64,000 bases of DNA, taken from positions 1,116,001 to 1,180,000 of the forward strand of contig NZ_WWGH01000002.1 in assembly GCF_009865135.1 (NCBI RefSeq), in the 5' to 3' direction. Shown piece after piece: positions 3,808 through 38,611 of the stretch. Within the stretch, counting starts at the first letter, position 1, and every line of letters starts with the position of its first letter. This DNA is from Streptomyces sp. SID8374. GTDB taxonomy: Bacteria; Actinomycetota; Actinomycetes; Streptomycetales; Streptomycetaceae. A program made the translations under genes and the position numbers. The notes under the pieces are model-generated. The model had not been told where the DNA came from. It was given only the letters and a program-made list of their open reading frames with translations, and searched no databases.

Positions 3808-5721
3808 GTGGATCTGCTGACCCGCATCAAGGGACCGCGCGACCTGGACCGACTCGGCCTCGACGAGCTGGACCAGCTCGCGGAGGAGATCCGCACCTTC
3901 CTCGTCGACGCGGTGTCCAAGACCGGCGGACACCTCGGCCCCAACCTGGGAGTGGTGGAGCTCACGATCGCCCTGCACCGGGTCTTCGAGTCGCCCCGCG
4001 ACAAGGTGCTCTGGGACACCGGCCACCAGAGTTACGTGCACAAGCTGCTCACCGGCCGCCAGGACTTCTCCCGCCTCAAGATGAAGGGCGGCCTCTCCGG
4101 CTACCCCTCGCAGGCCGAGTCCGAGCACGACGTCATCGAGAACAGCCACGCCTCCACGGTCCTCGGCTGGGCCGACGGCCTGGCCAAGGCCAACGAGGTA
4201 CTGAAGAAGGACGACCACGTCGTCGCGGTCATCGGCGACGGCGCGCTCACCGGCGGTATGGCCTGGGAGGCGCTGAACAACATCGCCGCCGCCAAGGACC
4301 GCCCGCTGGTCATCGTGGTCAACGACAACGAGCGCTCGTACGCTCCCACGATCGGCGGCCTCGCCAACCACCTCGCCACGCTCCGTACGACCGACGGCTA
4401 CGAGCGGTTCCTGGCCCGCGGCAAGGACATCCTGGAGCGCACGCCCGTCGTCGGCCGCCCGCTCTACGAGACCCTGCACGGCGCCAAGAAGGGCCTGAAG
4501 GACTTCATCGCCCCGCAGGGCATGTTCGAGGACCTCGGCCTGAAGTACGTCGGCCCCATCGACGGCCACGACATCGAGGCCCTGGAGTCCGCGCTCCAGC
4601 GCGCCAAGCGCTTCGGCGGCCCGGTCATCGTGCACTGCCTCACCGAGAAGGGCCGCGGCTACACCCCCGCCCTGGAGGACGAGGCCGACCGCTTCCACGC
4701 GGTGGGCAAGATCCACCCGGACACCGGTCTGCCGATCTCCACCTCCGGCCTCGACTGGACCTCGGTCTTCGGCGAGGAGATGCTCAAGCTCGGCCAGGAG
4801 CGCGAGGACATCGTCGCGATCACCGCGGCCATGCTCCAGCCGGTCGGCCTCGGCAAGTTCGAGGAGGCATTCCCGGACCGGATCTACGACGTCGGCATCG
4901 CCGAGCAGCACGGCGCGGTCTCCGCGGCGGGCCTGGCCACCGGCGGCCTCCACCCGGTCTTCGCGGTCTACGCCACCTTCCTCAACCGCGCCTTCGACCA
5001 GGTCCTGATGGATGTGGCCCTGCACAAGTGCGGCGTCACCTTCGTCCTGGACCGGGCCGGCGTCACCGGCACCGACGGCGCCTCGCACAACGGCATGTGG
5101 GACATGTCGATCCTCCAGTGCGTGCCCACCCTCCGGATCGCCGCCCCGCGCGACGCCGACCAGGTCCGCGCCCAGCTGCGCGAGGCCGTCGCCGTCGACG
5201 ACGCGCCCACCGTGGTCCGCTTCTCCAAGGGCGCGGTCGGCCCGGCGGTCAAGGCCGTCGGCAAGGCCGGGGGCATGGACATCCTGCGCGAGCCGAAGGC
5301 GGCCCGCCCGGACGTCCTGATCGTCTCCGTCGGCGCGCTCGCCCCGATGTGCCTGGAGATCGCCGACCTGCTGGACGCCCAGGGCATCTCCTCCACCGTC
5401 GTCGACCCGCGCTGGGTCAAACCGGTGGACGAGGCGCTCGCCCCGCTCGCCGAGCGCCACCGCGTCGTCGTCACCGTCGAGGACAACAGCCGCGCCGGAG
5501 GGGTCGGCTCCGCCGTCGCCCAGGCGCTGCGCGACGCGGGCGTCGACGTACCGCTGCGCGACTTCGGCATCCCGCCGGTCTTCCTCGACCACGCCTCGCG
5601 CGGCGAGGTCATGGCCGAGATCGGACTGACCGCCCCGGACATCGCCCGCCAGGTCACCGGCCTGGTCGCGAAGCTGGACGGCCGCTTCGAGAGCCGCGCG
5701 GTGGAGCCCGCCCGCGACTGA
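3808..5721 (+). CDS. dxs: 1-deoxy-D-xylulose-5-phosphate synthase
   Basis: First enzyme of the MEP isoprenoid pathway: condenses pyruvate with glyceraldehyde 3-phosphate using thiamine diphosphate to give DXP, which also feeds thiamine and pyridoxal synthesis. The 637-residue length is normal for Dxs. Visible signatures are the N-terminal [13 protein letters not shown] and GHQSYVHK motifs, the thiamine-diphosphate site [16 protein letters not shown], the catalytic-Glu motif [13 protein letters not shown], and a C-terminal transketolase domain (RWVKPVDE). GTG start with AAGGAGG (3796-3802) six bases upstream. It appears to be a single-gene unit: hairpin terminators stand before it (3654-3696) and after it (5748-5789). 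Streptomyces often carry two dxs genes; which copy this is cannot be told from here. Confidence 0.97.
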
Positions 5722-32419: not shown

Positions 32420-32547
32420 GCCGGGACCTCTCTGCGGATGCGGAGAGGGGATGGTGAGGGGCGGGGCGGGTGAAGTACAGCACCGGGCCGGTGTGTTGCG
32501 CGGAACGACCCGGTTGCCGCAGTCTCTTTTACTGTTGGTGATTCAGC

Positions 32548-32627
32548 AGCACTGCTCGTGGTTCAGAAGCACTGCTCGTGGTTCAGAAGCGCCGCTCGTG
32601 GTTCAGGAGCACCGCTCGTGGGTCAGG
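32548..32627. repeat. Four tandem 20-bp repeats at the 3 prime end of the Cys-rich membrane protein gene
   Basis: The unit AGCACTGCTCGTGGTTCAGA occurs twice exactly (32548-32567, 32568-32587) and twice with two or three changes (32588-32607, 32608-32627). Copy 4 contains the stop codon of the minus-strand TIGR04222 gene, and every copy has a TGA in that frame. The first two units contain the small inverted repeat AGCA-C-TGCT. No spacers of constant unique sequence, so not a CRISPR. Likely slipped-strand expansion at the end of a low-complexity gene. Confidence 0.8.
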
Positions 32628-33657
32628 AGCTGCTGCCGCAGCTGGAGCCGCCCGAACTCCCGCAGCTGGACCCTGAGCTCCCGCAGCTGGACCCGCCACC
32701 GCAGCTGGAGCCCGAACCGCCGCAGCCGGACCCGCCGCCGCAGCCACCTCCGCCCCCGCCTCCGCAACTCGTGTGCCCCGGGCCCGCGTCGGCGCACCAG
32801 ACCGTGGTCGCCGCGAAGCCCGACGCCGCCGCCGTACCTCCCACGTACCCCGCCGACCGGCTCCCCGAGAAACCGGACCGCGTCCGCCGGCCCCGCATGT
32901 GCAGCCGGGCCGCCGCGATCAGCTGGGCCTGGAGCACCGGGTCGGGGAGCGCGCGCAGCCCCCGGTTGGCGACGAGGTACGGCGGGGTCAGCAGGTAGGC
33001 GTTCGCGGCCCGGAAGGCGTGTGCGGCCCGGCGGCCCGCCCGGGTGATCCGGTTGGCGGCGGCCGCGGCCACGACGAGCCCGCTGATCCCGCCCAGCAGG
33101 ATGCCGGGCAGCATCTTCAGGACGAACGGGAACGGCATGTCGAACGGGGAGTCGTGCGAAATGTACTGAAGGACCGTGAGCAGGATCGAGACCGGGAGCG
33201 CGGCGAAGCAGCCCACCCCCTGGACCAGTCCCCACCGCCGTACGGGACGGCTGTCGGCGGGCCGGACGAGCAGCCCGCGCTGGGCGAGCCCGTCACCGAT
33301 CTCCTGCACCGCCGGGTGGTGCATCACCGCCTCCCGCACCGCGTGCAGAGCCCCGCTCGGCGCGGTCGACAGCGCCTGGAGCACGGCGCGTTCGACCGGG
33401 TCGTTCGCCTGCGGACGCTGTACGGAGATGATGCCGGGGCCGCCGATGAGGACCCGGCCGTCGGAGTGCAGCGCGGTGAGCGCGGTGTCCGCGACCCTGG
33501 CCGGACCGCCGTTCAGGAACGCCGCCTCGTAGAGGTCGTGGACGGCGGGGGAGGGGCCGGCCGACGGGCGGCGGGACCGGGAGACGATCACCTTCGCGAT
33601 GAGGAGCACGGTGGAGAGGACGACCGCGAGGGTCCACAGCTGGGCGAGCGTGTTCAT
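32623..33657 (-). CDS. TIGR04222-type membrane protein with cysteine-rich C-terminal tail
   Basis: The 344-residue product has one N-terminal membrane helix (about 8-26), a soluble domain (30-140) with the family motif VHDLYEAAFLNGGPARVADTAL, broken here for length, and two further helices (about 143-165 and 178-201). The last 57 residues hold eight cysteines (288, 298, 306, 312, 319, 325, 332, 340), most separated by 5-7 Gly/Ser residues. Five bases upstream lies a DUF692 (MNIO) gene; enzymes of that family are known to oxidise cysteines in peptides, so the tail is a candidate substrate (inference). Start: ATG 33657 with GGGGAAG upstream rather than in-frame 33747. Function of the domain is unknown. 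Confidence 0.85.
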   Translation of the reverse strand: MNTLAQLWTLAVVLSTVLLIAKVIVSRSRRPSAGPSPAVHDLYEAAFLNGGPARVADTALTALHSDGRVLIGGPGIISVQRPQANDPVERAVLQALSTAPSGALHAVREAVMHHPAVQEIGDGLAQRGLLVRPADSRPVRRWGLVQGVGCFAALPVSILLTVLQYISHDSPFDMPFPFVLKMLPGILLGGISGLVVAAAAANRITRAGRRAAHAFRAANAYLLTPPYLVANRGLRALPDPVLQAQLIAAARLHMRGRRTRSGFSGSRSAGYVGGTAAASGFAATTVWCADAGPGHTSCGGGGGGGCGGGSGCGGSGSSCGGGSSCGSSGSSCGSSGGSSCGSSS

Positions 33658-33662
33658 GGCGG

Positions 33663-34952
33663 TCACTTCCCCACGAGGACGGCACGGGCCGCCCGGACGA
33701 TACGGCCGGCCCGGCTCGGCGGCCGGGGCCCGGAGCGGTCCTCCCACCAGTGCGTCAGCCGACGCTGCGCCACGGGGTCGGGGAGGCCGCCCGAGATCAG
33801 GATCCGCTCCACGAAGTCGAGGGCGTCGCGCCGGTAACCACCGCTCATCGGGCGCGACTTGGCGTAGTCGATGAACGCGGCGCGGTAGCCGTCGCCGAGG
33901 ATCTCCGGCAGCTCGGGCGCCACCTTGGCGACGACGTCGGCGCGCTTGGCGGCCAGCGCCCGGCTCTGCACCCGCAGCCGCCGGTGGTCGAAGCCCTCGG
34001 GCGCCGGGGTGCCCGCGACGAGCGCGGAGAGCAGTGCGGTCTGGGCGACGGCGGTACGGTCGCGGGCTCCGGGGGCGGCGGTGCGCGCCGAGGGCGTCGC
34101 CGTACGAGGGCGGGCTCCGCGTGGGTCGGCGGCCCCGGCCCGCAGTGTGGCCCGGATCGTCTCCAGCTCACCGGCCAGCTCCGTACCCGGCGGGAAGGCG
34201 TCGTCGCGCTCCAGCAGCACGCCCGGCGGGTCGACCCGGGAGCGCAGCTCGGCCAGCACGTCGAGGACCGGGGCGGTCACCGGGTGGGCGTGCGTGTCGT
34301 GCCAGACGCCGTCCTTCTCGACCCCGCCCGCCACATGGACGTACGCGATGGCCTCCACCGGCAGTTCGTCCAGCGCCTTCGCCGGGTCCTGGCCGAGGTT
34401 GACGTGGTTGGTGTGCAGGTTGGCCACGTCGATCAGCAGCCGCACCCCGGTCCGGTCGACCAGCTCCGCCAGGAACTGCCCTTCGGTCAGCTCCTCGTCC
34501 GGCCAGGAGATCAGCGCCGCGATGTTCTCCAGGGCCAGCGGCACGGGCAGCGCGTCCTGGGCGATGCGCACGTTCTCGCAGAGCACCTCCAGCGCGTCCC
34601 AGGTGCGGGGCACCGGCAGCAGGTGGCCCGCCTCCAGCCGCGGTGACGCGGCCAGCGGCCCCCCGGCCCGTACGAACGCGATGTGCTCGGTCACCAGCGG
34701 CGTGCCCAGCAGCTCGGCCCGCGCCGCCAGTCCGGCGAGCCGCTCGGCGTCCGGGCGGTCCGCACCGCCCAGGCCGAGCGAGACGCCGTGCGGCACGACC
34801 GTCACGCCCCGCTCCCTCAGACGCACCAGGGAGTCCGGGAGGTGGTCGGCACAGAGGTTCTCCGCCACCGCCTCGACCCAGTCGATCCCCGTGAGCGCCT
34901 CCACCTCGGCCGCGATCTCCGGCCGCCAGCCGATCCCGATGCCCAGCTTCAT
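33663..34952 (-). CDS. DUF692 / MNIO iron-dependent oxidase with fused HvfC-like C-terminal domain
   Basis: Residues 1-275 form a DUF692 TIM barrel with candidate metal ligands His55, His90, Glu142, Asp175, His183, His206, His221/His223 and Glu248, matching the His/Asp/Glu set of multinuclear non-haem iron oxidases such as MbnB and TglH, which modify cysteines of ribosomal peptides. After a variable Pro/Arg linker, residues 300-385 resemble the HvfC/DUF2063 partner domain (helical, [21 protein letters not shown] then the late [11 protein letters not shown], split here). Such partners recruit the precursor. Fusion of enzyme and partner is notable. Start: GGAGGAGGGG precedes ATG 34952. Gap to the Cys-rich membrane protein gene is five bases, so they form an operon. 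Confidence 0.88.
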
Positions 34953-35143: not shown

Positions 35144-35893
35144 TTACGGCAGCGGCGGCATAGTCGGCGGCACCGGGCGCGAGGTGAACGACTGGTCGCC
35201 GGTCGGTGTCACCGGCACCGGAACCTGCGGCACCTGCCCGCCCTGCGGCATCGGCGGGCCCGAGGGGCTGGCCGTGGACCCGCCGGCCGCCTCGCGCGCC
35301 AGGGCGTCGAAATCGACGAAGCCGGTGCCCTCCAGCATGGTGATGTGGTCCAGCACGGTCTGGTTCGCGTCGCTGGCGAGCTGCCGGATCAGGGTGTTGC
35401 GGGTGGTGTGCCTGACCTGGCCTATCAGCCCGAACACCTTGCCGTGGGCGGCCCGCAGGATGTTGGCGAACTTCCGCTCGTACTCGTCCCCGCTCGCCGC
35501 CGTCAGTTCCGCCAGCCACGCCTGCTGCTGCTCGGTCGGCTGGTTGGGCAGCTCCACCCCGAGCTTCGCGGCCACGTCCCGGGCCCGCCGGTCCAGGTCC
35601 GTGTGGCCGACGACCAGGTGGTCCCCGGCGGCCTTCGTCGCCTCGCTGGGCGCCCGTTCGATCGCCTGCTGCCCGGCGGGCAGCTCCCACAGCCCGGCGA
35701 GGCGCACCTTGACCAGGAAGTCCCGGTCGGTCGCGGAGAGCGGGCCCCACTGGGTGGCGACGCTGGACGCGTTCAGGTTCGCCTCGCCGGTGCCCGAACG
35801 GTCCGCGTAGGACCAGACGGGGAAGGCGAGCGCGCCGACTGTGGCGACCAGTGCCGCGATGATGAGGGCCGTTCCGTTGATGCGTCGCAACAA
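35144..35893 (-). CDS. DUF4142 domain exported protein
   Basis: The 249-residue product has an N-terminal hydrophobic segment (about 8-28) that is a signal peptide or anchor, then a DUF4142 helical bundle (about 52-195: TDRDFLVKVRLAGLWE at its start, then the GHTDLDRRARDVAAKLG helix and HGKVFGLIGQVRH). DUF4142 is a ferritin-like four-helix fold of unknown role. The C-terminus is Pro/Gly-rich and disordered. Start: two consecutive TTG codons (35893, 35890) follow GGGAG; either could serve, a rare start even for Streptomyces. It is on the same strand as the DUF692 gene, 190 bases upstream, but seems a separate unit. Confidence 0.85.
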   Translation of the reverse strand: MLRRINGTALIIAALVATVGALAFPVWSYADRSGTGEANLNASSVATQWGPLSATDRDFLVKVRLAGLWELPAGQQAIERAPSEATKAAGDHLVVGHTDLDRRARDVAAKLGVELPNQPTEQQQAWLAELTAASGDEYERKFANILRAAHGKVFGLIGQVRHTTRNTLIRQLASDANQTVLDHITMLEGTGFVDFDALAREAAGGSTASPSGPPMPQGGQVPQVPVPVTPTGDQSFTSRPVPPTMPPLP

Positions 35894-36785: not shown

Positions 36786-36866
36786 GTGTGCGTTCACCGG
36801 CGGGTTTCCGAGGGGCGTGTGCGTTCCCCGGCGGGACTACGACGGGGTGCGCGCGTTCACCGGCGG
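36786..36866. repeat. Three near-direct repeats with a 31-32-bp period
   Basis: GTGTGCGTTCACCGGCGGG (36786-36804) recurs at 36817-36835 with one change and again near 36847-36866 with two or three. The third copy covers the stop codon of the minus-strand PTH2-like gene. The other copies lie in the gap before the HAD gene. Probably local duplication of the gene end; a regulator site is less likely. Confidence 0.65.
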
Positions 36867-37609
36867 ACGCGTACGCCCCCGAGAGGGCAGAACCGCAGAC
36901 CGCCCTCCACGGCGACGGTAGGCCCGGGAGCGATCTCCGTGAACCCCGCGTCGCGTACCACCGGCAGGCCGCTCGTGGTCAGCTGCCGCCAGCGCTCCGG
37001 GGTGGCCGTGGCCACGGAGAGCGGGAACCCCGCCTCGCGCCAGGCCTTGCGCTCGGTGTCGGACAGCTCCCACCAGGCGAGCTGGGCACCGTGGCCGACC
37101 TGCGCCATCGTCTTGCCCGCCGACATCTCCAGCTCCGGGTTGAGCCAGAGGACCGGGCCCTGGGGGTCGGGGGCGGCGGGCGGTTCGGGGTCGTCCAGGT
37201 CGGTGCCCGACACCTGGAGCTTGGCCAGCTCCTTGGGCCAGCCGTCCAGGGGGATCGGCGGGTACACCCGTACCTCCGCGCTGTCGCCCGTCACCGTGAT
37301 CCCGGGCAGGGCGGCCGCCTTGCGCCACTCCGCGCCGCGCGCCCGGCGCACCACCTTGCGGATCCGGGCGTCCTCCCAGTCCCGCATCGCCCGGGCCCAC
37401 TCGCCCTCGCCGAGGGACCGCTCGTCGGACAGGATCGTCAGTACCGCGCGGGCGGCGGTGCGCAGGGCGTCCGTGCGGGCGGGCGGGTCCGTCTTCTCCA
37501 GGTGCACCACGAGCGGGAGCACGTACTGCGGGGCTTCGTCCCGGTCGGTCGGGCCGTTGTGGAAGGGGCTCGGGGAGGTGGTGTTCTGGGAGGTGTCGTC
37601 GCTGCTCAC
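36857..37609 (-). CDS. PTH2-like peptidyl-tRNA hydrolase with duplicated N-terminal half
   Basis: The 250-residue product has the PTH2 active-site signature MSAGKTMAQVGHGAQLAW (Lys166, Gln170, His173) in its second half, followed by the usual GLPVVRDAGFTEI end segment. PTH2 enzymes recycle peptidyl-tRNA released from ribosomes and are normally about 120 residues. Here residues 27-135 look like a second, degenerate PTH2 fold (VLPLVVHLE, IRKVVRRARGAEW) without the Lys-Gln-His set, so the protein may be an internal pseudo-dimer. GTG start at 37609. The stop falls inside a repeat array. The usual bacterial Pth1 is expected elsewhere in the genome. Confidence 0.75.
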   Translation of the reverse strand: MSSDDTSQNTTSPSPFHNGPTDRDEAPQYVLPLVVHLEKTDPPARTDALRTAARAVLTILSDERSLGEGEWARAMRDWEDARIRKVVRRARGAEWRKAAALPGITVTGDSAEVRVYPPIPLDGWPKELAKLQVSGTDLDDPEPPAAPDPQGPVLWLNPELEMSAGKTMAQVGHGAQLAWWELSDTERKAWREAGFPLSVATATPERWRQLTTSGLPVVRDAGFTEIAPGPTVAVEGGLRFCPLGGVRVRR

Positions 37610-38356: not shown

Positions 38357-38422
38357 CAGCCCGTTCCGACGGTACGGCTCTGGTAGCCCGGCCTGACAGC
38401 CCGGTTACGTACGCTTGTGGGC

Positions 38423-38611
38423 ATGGACGACGCCTCGTACTGCGCAACGCCCGCGCCCGCGCCCGCGATCACGGAGGCGGACGCGGGCCCGCCGTTCGCG
38501 GAGTGCGTGCTCTGCCGTGAGCCGACCGAGTACCCGGAGTCGGCCAAGGGCGCCACGCTCTGCCCGGTCTGCGCCTGGCAGGAGGCGGGGCGCTCGGCCT
38601 GCTCCGGCTGA
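38423..38611 (+). CDS. Small zinc-ribbon-like protein (62 residues)
   Basis: The product has an Ala/Pro-rich start and two CxxC knuckles, CVLCREPTEYPES and TLCPVCAWQEAG, 19 residues apart, the pattern of a small zinc ribbon. No further domain. It follows the AIM24 gene by 66 bases. The ATG has no good ribosome binding site; TACGCT seven bases upstream could be a -10 of a leaderless transcript. An in-frame GTG at 38417 is an alternative. Similar tiny genes occur in Streptomyces, but I cannot name a role. Chemistry of the motif and codon bias (GC-rich third positions) support that it is real. Confidence 0.65.
   Translation: MDDASYCATPAPAPAITEADAGPPFAECVLCREPTEYPESAKGATLCPVCAWQEAGRSACSG

Follow-up and report, generated by a model that had tools for sequence, protein, structure and literature searches.

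MNIO (DUF692) proteins, iron enzymes that modify peptides, form a rapidly growing group. Their well-studied substrates are small peptides that are encoded beside the enzyme, and TglH, for example, acts on the C-terminal cysteine of such a small peptide. Here, we analyze an MNIO gene that adjoins a gene for a membrane protein of the TIGR04222 family in Streptomyces sp. SID8374, within a 64,000-nucleotide stretch of its genome (contig NZ_WWGH01000002.1, positions 1,116,001 to 1,180,000; hereafter the window). The MNIO is fused to a C-terminal partner domain. We propose, with moderate confidence, that the fused enzyme oxidizes cysteines in cytoplasm-facing Cys-Gly/Ser tails of the neighboring TIGR04222 protein and of an unlinked small protein, and that the modified tails are likely metal ligands.

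The pairing of MNIO with TIGR04222 is not new, because the pair, its gene order and the idea that the tail is a substrate already appear in PMC12452194 (2025). In the excerpts of that paper used here, TIGR04222 proteins make up 40% of more than 1,000 cysteine-containing proteins that lack a signal and whose genes precede MNIO genes, and the tails of a TIGR04222 subset are suggested as MNIO substrates. The same excerpts report no MNIO in 490 of 1372 TIGR04222 genomes and list the order PTH-like adjamnio-II gene, MNIO, TIGR04222; a PTH2-like gene also lies upstream in the window. PMC5183585, in the part consulted, names TIGR04222 once, as a predicted ribosomal peptide. The window locus shares with the clusters of PMC12452194 the two families, the Cys-rich Gly/Ser tail and the upstream PTH2-like gene. 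However, it differs from their description there in that the partner is fused, the predicted topology is opposite and an unlinked one-helix protein is a candidate substrate. Neither the fused partner nor the unlinked small protein nor a cytoplasmic tail was described in our literature search, which left supplements and most subscription papers outside its scope.

A fused MNIO enzyme and its cysteine-tailed neighbor

The window genome contains one PF05114 match and one TIGR04222 match, both above the cut-offs of their families, and the two genes adjoin with the gap of five bases (33658-33662) that the earlier note on this DNA had described. The named sequences that match the MNIO best come from Streptomyces, among them S. 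cyaneofuscatus, S. microflavus and S. anulatus. Among 80 named loci, 73 have enough downstream sequence, and a reading frame with a Cys-rich Gly/Ser tail lies 3' of the MNIO gene in 67 of these.

The AlphaFold2 model of the MNIO and its fused domain is confident throughout (mean predicted local distance difference test score (pLDDT) of 95.0) and has the TIM-barrel fold of MbnB and TglH. It matches TglH (8hi7_B) with a Z score of 28.1 and a root-mean-square deviation (rmsd) of 2.8 over 265 aligned residues, and 7dz9_A with a Z score of 28.0 and an rmsd of 2.2 over 252 residues. The enzyme therefore resembles the TglH/TglI system of Pseudomonas syringae in its barrel fold and in having a partner protein, whereas its identity to TglH is 25% over the aligned part. 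Nine ligand-type residues (H55, E89, E142, D175, N178, H206, D219, H221 and E248), which by their motif we take to be metal ligands, are kept in all 92 aligned MNIO rows, save for Asp in place of E89 in three; bufferin-type MNIOs above 300 bits, sequences containing X and a single truncated one are not part of this alignment. Like the bufferin and captophorin systems (PMC12452194 and PMC13097082, both in excerpt), the window locus has BufB and HvfB types as its highest-scoring NCBIfam models and Cys-Gly contexts like those of EGKCG motifs. Unlike in those systems, the MNIO lies below both equivalog cut-offs (173.8 bits against 310 for MNIO_BufB, 142.2 bits against 360 for the HvfB type), DUF2063 is not found above its cut-off, and the carrier is a membrane protein rather than an exported peptide.

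The Streptomyces MNIO usually carries within its chain a partner that in other actinomycetes is mostly the product of the gene that follows. The partner domain (about 95-200 residues, ten invariant columns in 32 rows; four of 35 candidates were left out of its alignment) is fused at 34 of 40 Streptomyces MNIO loci and encoded downstream at the other six, while among 55 non-Streptomyces loci it is the next gene downstream in 39, fused in 11, missing in three and not classifiable in two. Overall, it is fused or directly downstream at 90 of 95 loci, a count in which two loci lack a reference and for which the profile was built partly from the same loci. MNIO matches below 100 bits were not taken into the locus set, and four further cases were left out (G484 C216, G404, G417 and G709 C29). 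The window domain is encoded with the MNIO and carries no DUF2063 signature above cut-off, the two features that define PME-type 2 partners. Its score against PF09836 (DUF2063) is 12.7 bits (E 0.16; cut-off 27.2), and the similarity to DUF2063 is weak both among the 32 members (best E 7e-4) and by hhalign (probability 13.5, E 0.0021). No PF09836 match above cut-off occurs in the window genome, with the NGO1945 fold (3dee) as the feature sought, the structures listed as matches to the MNIO model span residues 1-277 only and include none that matches the partner domain, and a profile comparison detected no similarity between TIGR04222 and the partner domain. PMC12452194 describes many TIGR04222-MNIO clusters as seemingly partnerless, and in some of them this may be because the partner is fused or is a short downstream gene.

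The TIGR04222 protein retains the low-complexity C-terminus of its family as a Gly/Ser/Cys tail. The eight tail cysteines (residues 288, 298, 306, 312, 319, 325, 332 and 340) fall in the range given by the earlier note, which had them mostly 5-7 residues apart; the actual intervals are 5-9 residues. A ninth cysteine, residue 150, lies outside the tail. The W-C motif is found in 16 of 17 tails of the Streptomyces proteins of this kind (type A), and in one of these 16 it is not at the first cysteine. Three hydrophobic helices, also noted earlier, emerge from both the hydrophobicity scan and the predicted model (pLDDT 80.9, with a low-confidence tail), and on both grounds the first of them is taken as a membrane helix.

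On which side of the membrane does the tail lie? Lysine plus arginine content is higher after helix 3 than in the loop between helices 2 and 3 in 39 of 40 Streptomyces proteins and 39 of 42 others (three of the 85 MNIO-adjacent copies were too short and were left out). The soluble part resembles GPP34, a family that with GOLPH3 is cytosolic, by hhalign (probability 72, E 3.4e-5, 78 columns), and the model matches GOLPH3 structures 9qpq_B (Z score 7.6, rmsd 5.6, 147 aligned) and 3kn1 (Z score 7.2, rmsd 5.1, 141 aligned), although Z scores below 8 may reflect a mere common arrangement. The window protein has no Pfam match, PF05719 (GPP34) included, and PF05719 matches two of 79 TIGR04222 homologues with a best E value of 0.0028. 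We thus suggest only a distant similarity to GPP34/GOLPH3/Vps74, in the soluble part; the membrane helices and the tail set TIGR04222 apart. The three helices, the charge distribution and the GPP34-like similarity together suggest that the tail is probably cytoplasmic, opposite to its published periplasmic placement. DUF2207_C also matches 12 of the 79 members (best E 3e-4), and a remote kinship may link it with TIGR04222 and GPP34. ExbB/TolQ matches to the model (Z scores of about 8-10) were set aside, since their rmsd values are mostly 7-16 and they look like a common helix arrangement; a few have an rmsd near 3 over about 90 residues.

Cysteine tails with and without the enzyme

TIGR04222 and MNIO genes occur together far more often than expected by chance, a point that the earlier note had proposed to check. 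Across 296 genomes of the phylum, TIGR04222 is above cut-off in 15, MNIO is present in 19 and both are present in 14; in each of these 14 the two genes share a strand and are no more than about 2.1 kb apart, as judged by eye from listed positions. Among 393 genomes of the class, 98 have MNIO, 114 have TIGR04222 above cut-off (113 usable, one being absent from the match listing) and 83 have both, with a Fisher P of 1.7e-43 that overstates independence because the genomes are related. The pair lies within 8 kb in 74 of the 83 genomes and is on the same strand in all 74. The best 7-9 first-pass candidates per genome were scored in the TIGR04222 searches, so that absences are weak. G617 was counted as MNIO-free, its sole PF05114 match being of another kind (51 bits).

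Outside Streptomyces, the cysteine tails track the enzyme. With a tail called where a Gly/Ser-rich stretch of at most 45 residues holds at least three cysteines (144 TIGR04222 copies classed), 44 of 47 MNIO-bearing but only two of 29 MNIO-free genomes carry one. These two were counted unchanged, although G444 is near a contig edge and the Cys-rich tail of G517, which may be misread, lacks Gly-Cys repeats. In the 59 MNIO-adjacent Cys tails, 264 of 330 cysteines have glycine as the next residue. In MNIO-free genomes, TIGR04222 proteins often have Gly/Ser/Asp tails that contain few cysteines or none, and Gly/Ser coding therefore does not by itself account for the cysteine repeats.

Within Streptomyces, the enzyme persists in genomes that lack the neighboring tail. 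Among 36 Streptomyces with MNIO and TIGR04222, 18 have no Cys tail; their TIGR04222 protein is a paralogue without a tail (type B) that stands next to type A in six other genomes. In a tree of 40 Streptomyces MNIO rows, the fused MNIOs that lack type A, 20 in all, group together in a single clade (support 100/98), with type B in 17 and no TIGR04222 beside the MNIO in three. The clade retains the nine ligand-type residues, and the ratio of nonsynonymous to synonymous substitution rates is 0.08-0.17 in six of its pairs and 0.11-0.19 in five type A pairs; by this measure, the MNIO without type A is still under purifying selection. Furthermore, PF05114 occurs in 96 of 101 Streptomyces, and MNIO loss is therefore rare. 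The enzyme must then have another role in this clade, and the TIGR04222 tail cannot be the sole substrate of the enzyme type. The earlier note had named loss of the cysteines with DUF692 kept as grounds for giving up the neighboring tail as substrate, and the 20 MNIOs are in effect such a case. That idea is supported in part, by the co-occurrence and the tracking outside Streptomyces, with the tail as one candidate substrate among others.

The persistence of the enzyme would be accounted for by an additional Cys-tail protein encoded elsewhere in the genome. Seventeen MNIO loci outside Streptomyces lack a TIGR04222 neighbor (matches below 180 bits and a row without a location were excluded). 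Eight of them encode, beside the MNIO, a small protein with one helix and a Cys-Gly(-His) tail, and G600 (L138 5876-7234) and G648 (L130 3517-4947) have another, larger reading frame with a Cys-Gly tail beside the MNIO. A profile of the small MNIO-adjacent proteins (A7) led to a protein of about 90 residues encoded far from the MNIO in 12 Streptomyces genomes, which consists of one helix, a basic stretch, an invariant W-W motif and Cys-Gly repeats. All 12 genes have an ATG start preceded by a purine-rich stretch; an aminotransferase gene adjoins all 12, and DUF2617 lies within the fetched stretch in 11 (both neighbors were recognized by N-terminal sequence, with Pfam names from the copies in the window genome). 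The window genome's protein matches no Pfam family, and NCBIfam likewise yields no match for four of the unlinked proteins. In the clade without type A, the protein has at least three tail cysteines in all 18 genomes examined, of 20. A second small-protein profile (A8) matched 65 of 101 Streptomyces, including the MNIO-free G302 and G388. At most 142 candidates were scored in the A7 search and 51 in the A8 search, which makes absences weak. The A7-A8 match spans 23 tail columns and is limited to them, and it therefore speaks for similar tails and not for anchors of shared origin.

The 12 proteins found by A7 and the four clade members found by A8 are a Cys-biased set; the unbiased part is a syntenic comparison of the stretch upstream of DUF2617 in 30 Streptomyces, 22 with MNIO and eight without. 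At least three tail cysteines are found at this site in 17 of the 22 against two of the eight (P 0.028). The eight comprise four open reading frames with 0-2 cysteines, two sites without a reading frame and two full tails, those of G302 and G388; excluding these two leaves none of six (P 0.0012). If the tails indeed lose cysteines where the enzyme is lost, the MNIO would modify the tails of resident membrane proteins rather than make a secreted peptide.

Features and neighbors of the locus

Table 1. Coordinates of the genes, domains and segments discussed (window positions unless stated otherwise)
Feature	Position	Strand	Details
MNIO (DUF692, PF05114) fused to C-terminal partner domain	33663..34952	-	429 aa; PF05114 256.3 bits (gathering score 25)
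MNIO TIM-barrel domain	34143..34943	-	residues 4-270; PF05114 match
Fused partner domain, all-helical	33669..34067	-	residues 296-428; like published PME-type 2 partners
TIGR04222 membrane protein type A, candidate substrate	32623..33657	-	344 aa; TIGR04222.1 169.1 bits (cut-off 43)
TIGR04222 membrane helix 1	33574..33654	-	residues 2-28; hydrophobicity and model
TIGR04222 soluble GPP34/GOLPH3-like part	33262..33558	-	about residues 34-132; predicted cytoplasmic
TIGR04222 membrane helix 2	33157..33261	-	residues 133-167; hydrophobicity and model
TIGR04222 membrane helix 3, then basic stretch	33055..33126	-	residues 178-201; hydrophobicity, charge and model
TIGR04222 Cys-Gly/Ser tail	32626..32799	-	residues 287-344; W-C-A motif at start, eight Cys
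PTH2-like gene, two genes further upstream of MNIO	36857..37609	-	PF01981 30.7 bits (cut-off 23)
Unlinked small protein of the window genome	C1 4086359-4086619, outside the window		W-W-x motif, Cys-Gly(-His) tail

The product of the PTH2-like gene is probably not an MNIO substrate. A DUF4142 gene (35144-35893) lies directly upstream of the MNIO gene; in some Streptomyces without type A, DUF4142 is directly downstream of the MNIO, at the position of type A (L051, L053 and L056), and in L054 DUF4142 genes flank the MNIO on both sides. A 20-bp tandem repeat (32538-32630; 4.7 copies, 90% matches) runs across the TIGR04222 stop codon and beyond, and the relative G104 has a different local repeat around its own stop (L052, about 4770-4870). 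A six-Cys small protein (38417-38611), kept at a nearby position in several further Streptomyces, looks like a zinc ribbon by eye, with a Pfam match below threshold only. A tie to heme synthesis, considered for hemG and hemQ nearby, was dropped, as this is Streptomyces synteny that is not seen in five loci of other genera (L062-L066).

Proposed mechanism and rival explanations

In the mechanism that we propose, the MNIO and its in-chain partner domain would engage tails on the cytoplasmic side of the membrane. A W-C or W-W at the start of the tail may serve as a shared recognition mark for this. The fused enzyme would oxidize cysteines in Cys-Gly units, acting in trans on several membrane-anchored tails. 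In the window genome, these would be the tails of the adjoining TIGR04222 protein and of the unlinked protein, and the latter would be the main substrate in the large Streptomyces clade without type A. The captophorins, whose cysteines become 5-thiooxazoles and which bind copper (PMC13097082, in the excerpt used), suggest the likely product by analogy, namely oxidized Cys-Gly units, for instance 5-thiooxazoles. Such a product may serve as a membrane-tethered ligand for copper or another soft metal, and it is in this inferred form that we retain the metal binding suggested by the earlier note. In a broader reading, to which we give even odds, the fused MNIO-partner enzyme would be a general in-trans maturase of cytoplasm-facing Cys-Gly tails on at least three kinds of membrane anchor, comprising a GPP34-like three-helix anchor, a one-helix anchor beside the MNIO and a one-helix W-W-motif anchor at a distant, conserved locus.

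The published alternative, a self-contained gene pair whose TIGR04222 tail is modified and, as with a bufferin, located outside the membrane, appears unlikely. The excerpts of PMC12452194 state a periplasmic tail from predicted topology, and a fourth hydrophobic segment precedes the tail in some non-Streptomyces members (for example G214, 2.46; G582, 2.0; G049, 1.98), for which a cytoplasmic tail may thus not hold. However, the charge distribution and the GPP34-like soluble part point the other way, the window protein has no fourth helix above threshold, and the clade of 20 MNIOs is conserved in the absence of the tail protein. Somewhat less probable still is that the MNIO modifies another, unrecognized peptide, with the Cys tails serving in unmodified form as metal- or redox-binding partners that depend on the same product. 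The persistence of the enzyme without the tail protein would fit this explanation, as would the statement in PMC12452194 that many MNIO substrates are hard to recognize, but the MNIO and its partner occur with Cys tails on carriers of several kinds, and the unlinked ortholog has fewer cysteines where the MNIO is absent. We consider it very improbable that the tails are plain reduced thiols for zinc, iron-sulfur or disulfide chemistry, linked to the MNIO by shared metal-stress regulation. Cys/Gly/His tails could bind metals unmodified, but the frequent scarcity or absence of cysteines in the retained tails of MNIO-free genomes would be unneeded under shared regulation.

Several points weigh against oxidation of cytoplasmic tails by the fused MNIO, beyond the fourth hydrophobic segment and the published placement. 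Gene order, fusion, conservation, co-occurrence and the tail comparison are observed here, whereas the topology, the cysteine modification of the tails, its chemistry and the metal are proposals drawn from them. The tail threshold was chosen after the tails had been viewed. Seven of the 17 non-Streptomyces loci without a TIGR04222 neighbor show no Cys tail within about 5 kb, and clade members G731 and G738 have no match to A7, the less specific profile. At the syntenic site, the MNIO-bearing G609 and G669 have only two tail cysteines, like some MNIO-free genomes, and no small reading frame is found there in the MNIO-bearing G683, G697 and G718. G302 and G388, in turn, are classed as MNIO-free and carry full tails, which we attribute, without proof, to fragmented assemblies (about 740 and 1420 contigs); by DUF2617, G388 clusters with genomes of the clade without type A. 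Finally, the MNIO-free contrast comprises six to eight Streptomyces genomes of few lineages and therefore few independent events.

If the fused MNIO does act on such membrane-anchored tails, MNIO chemistry would be widened from metallophore making to protein modification, and MNIO genes without a neighboring substrate would be explained. The analysis also provides a short list of testable proteins in common Streptomyces.

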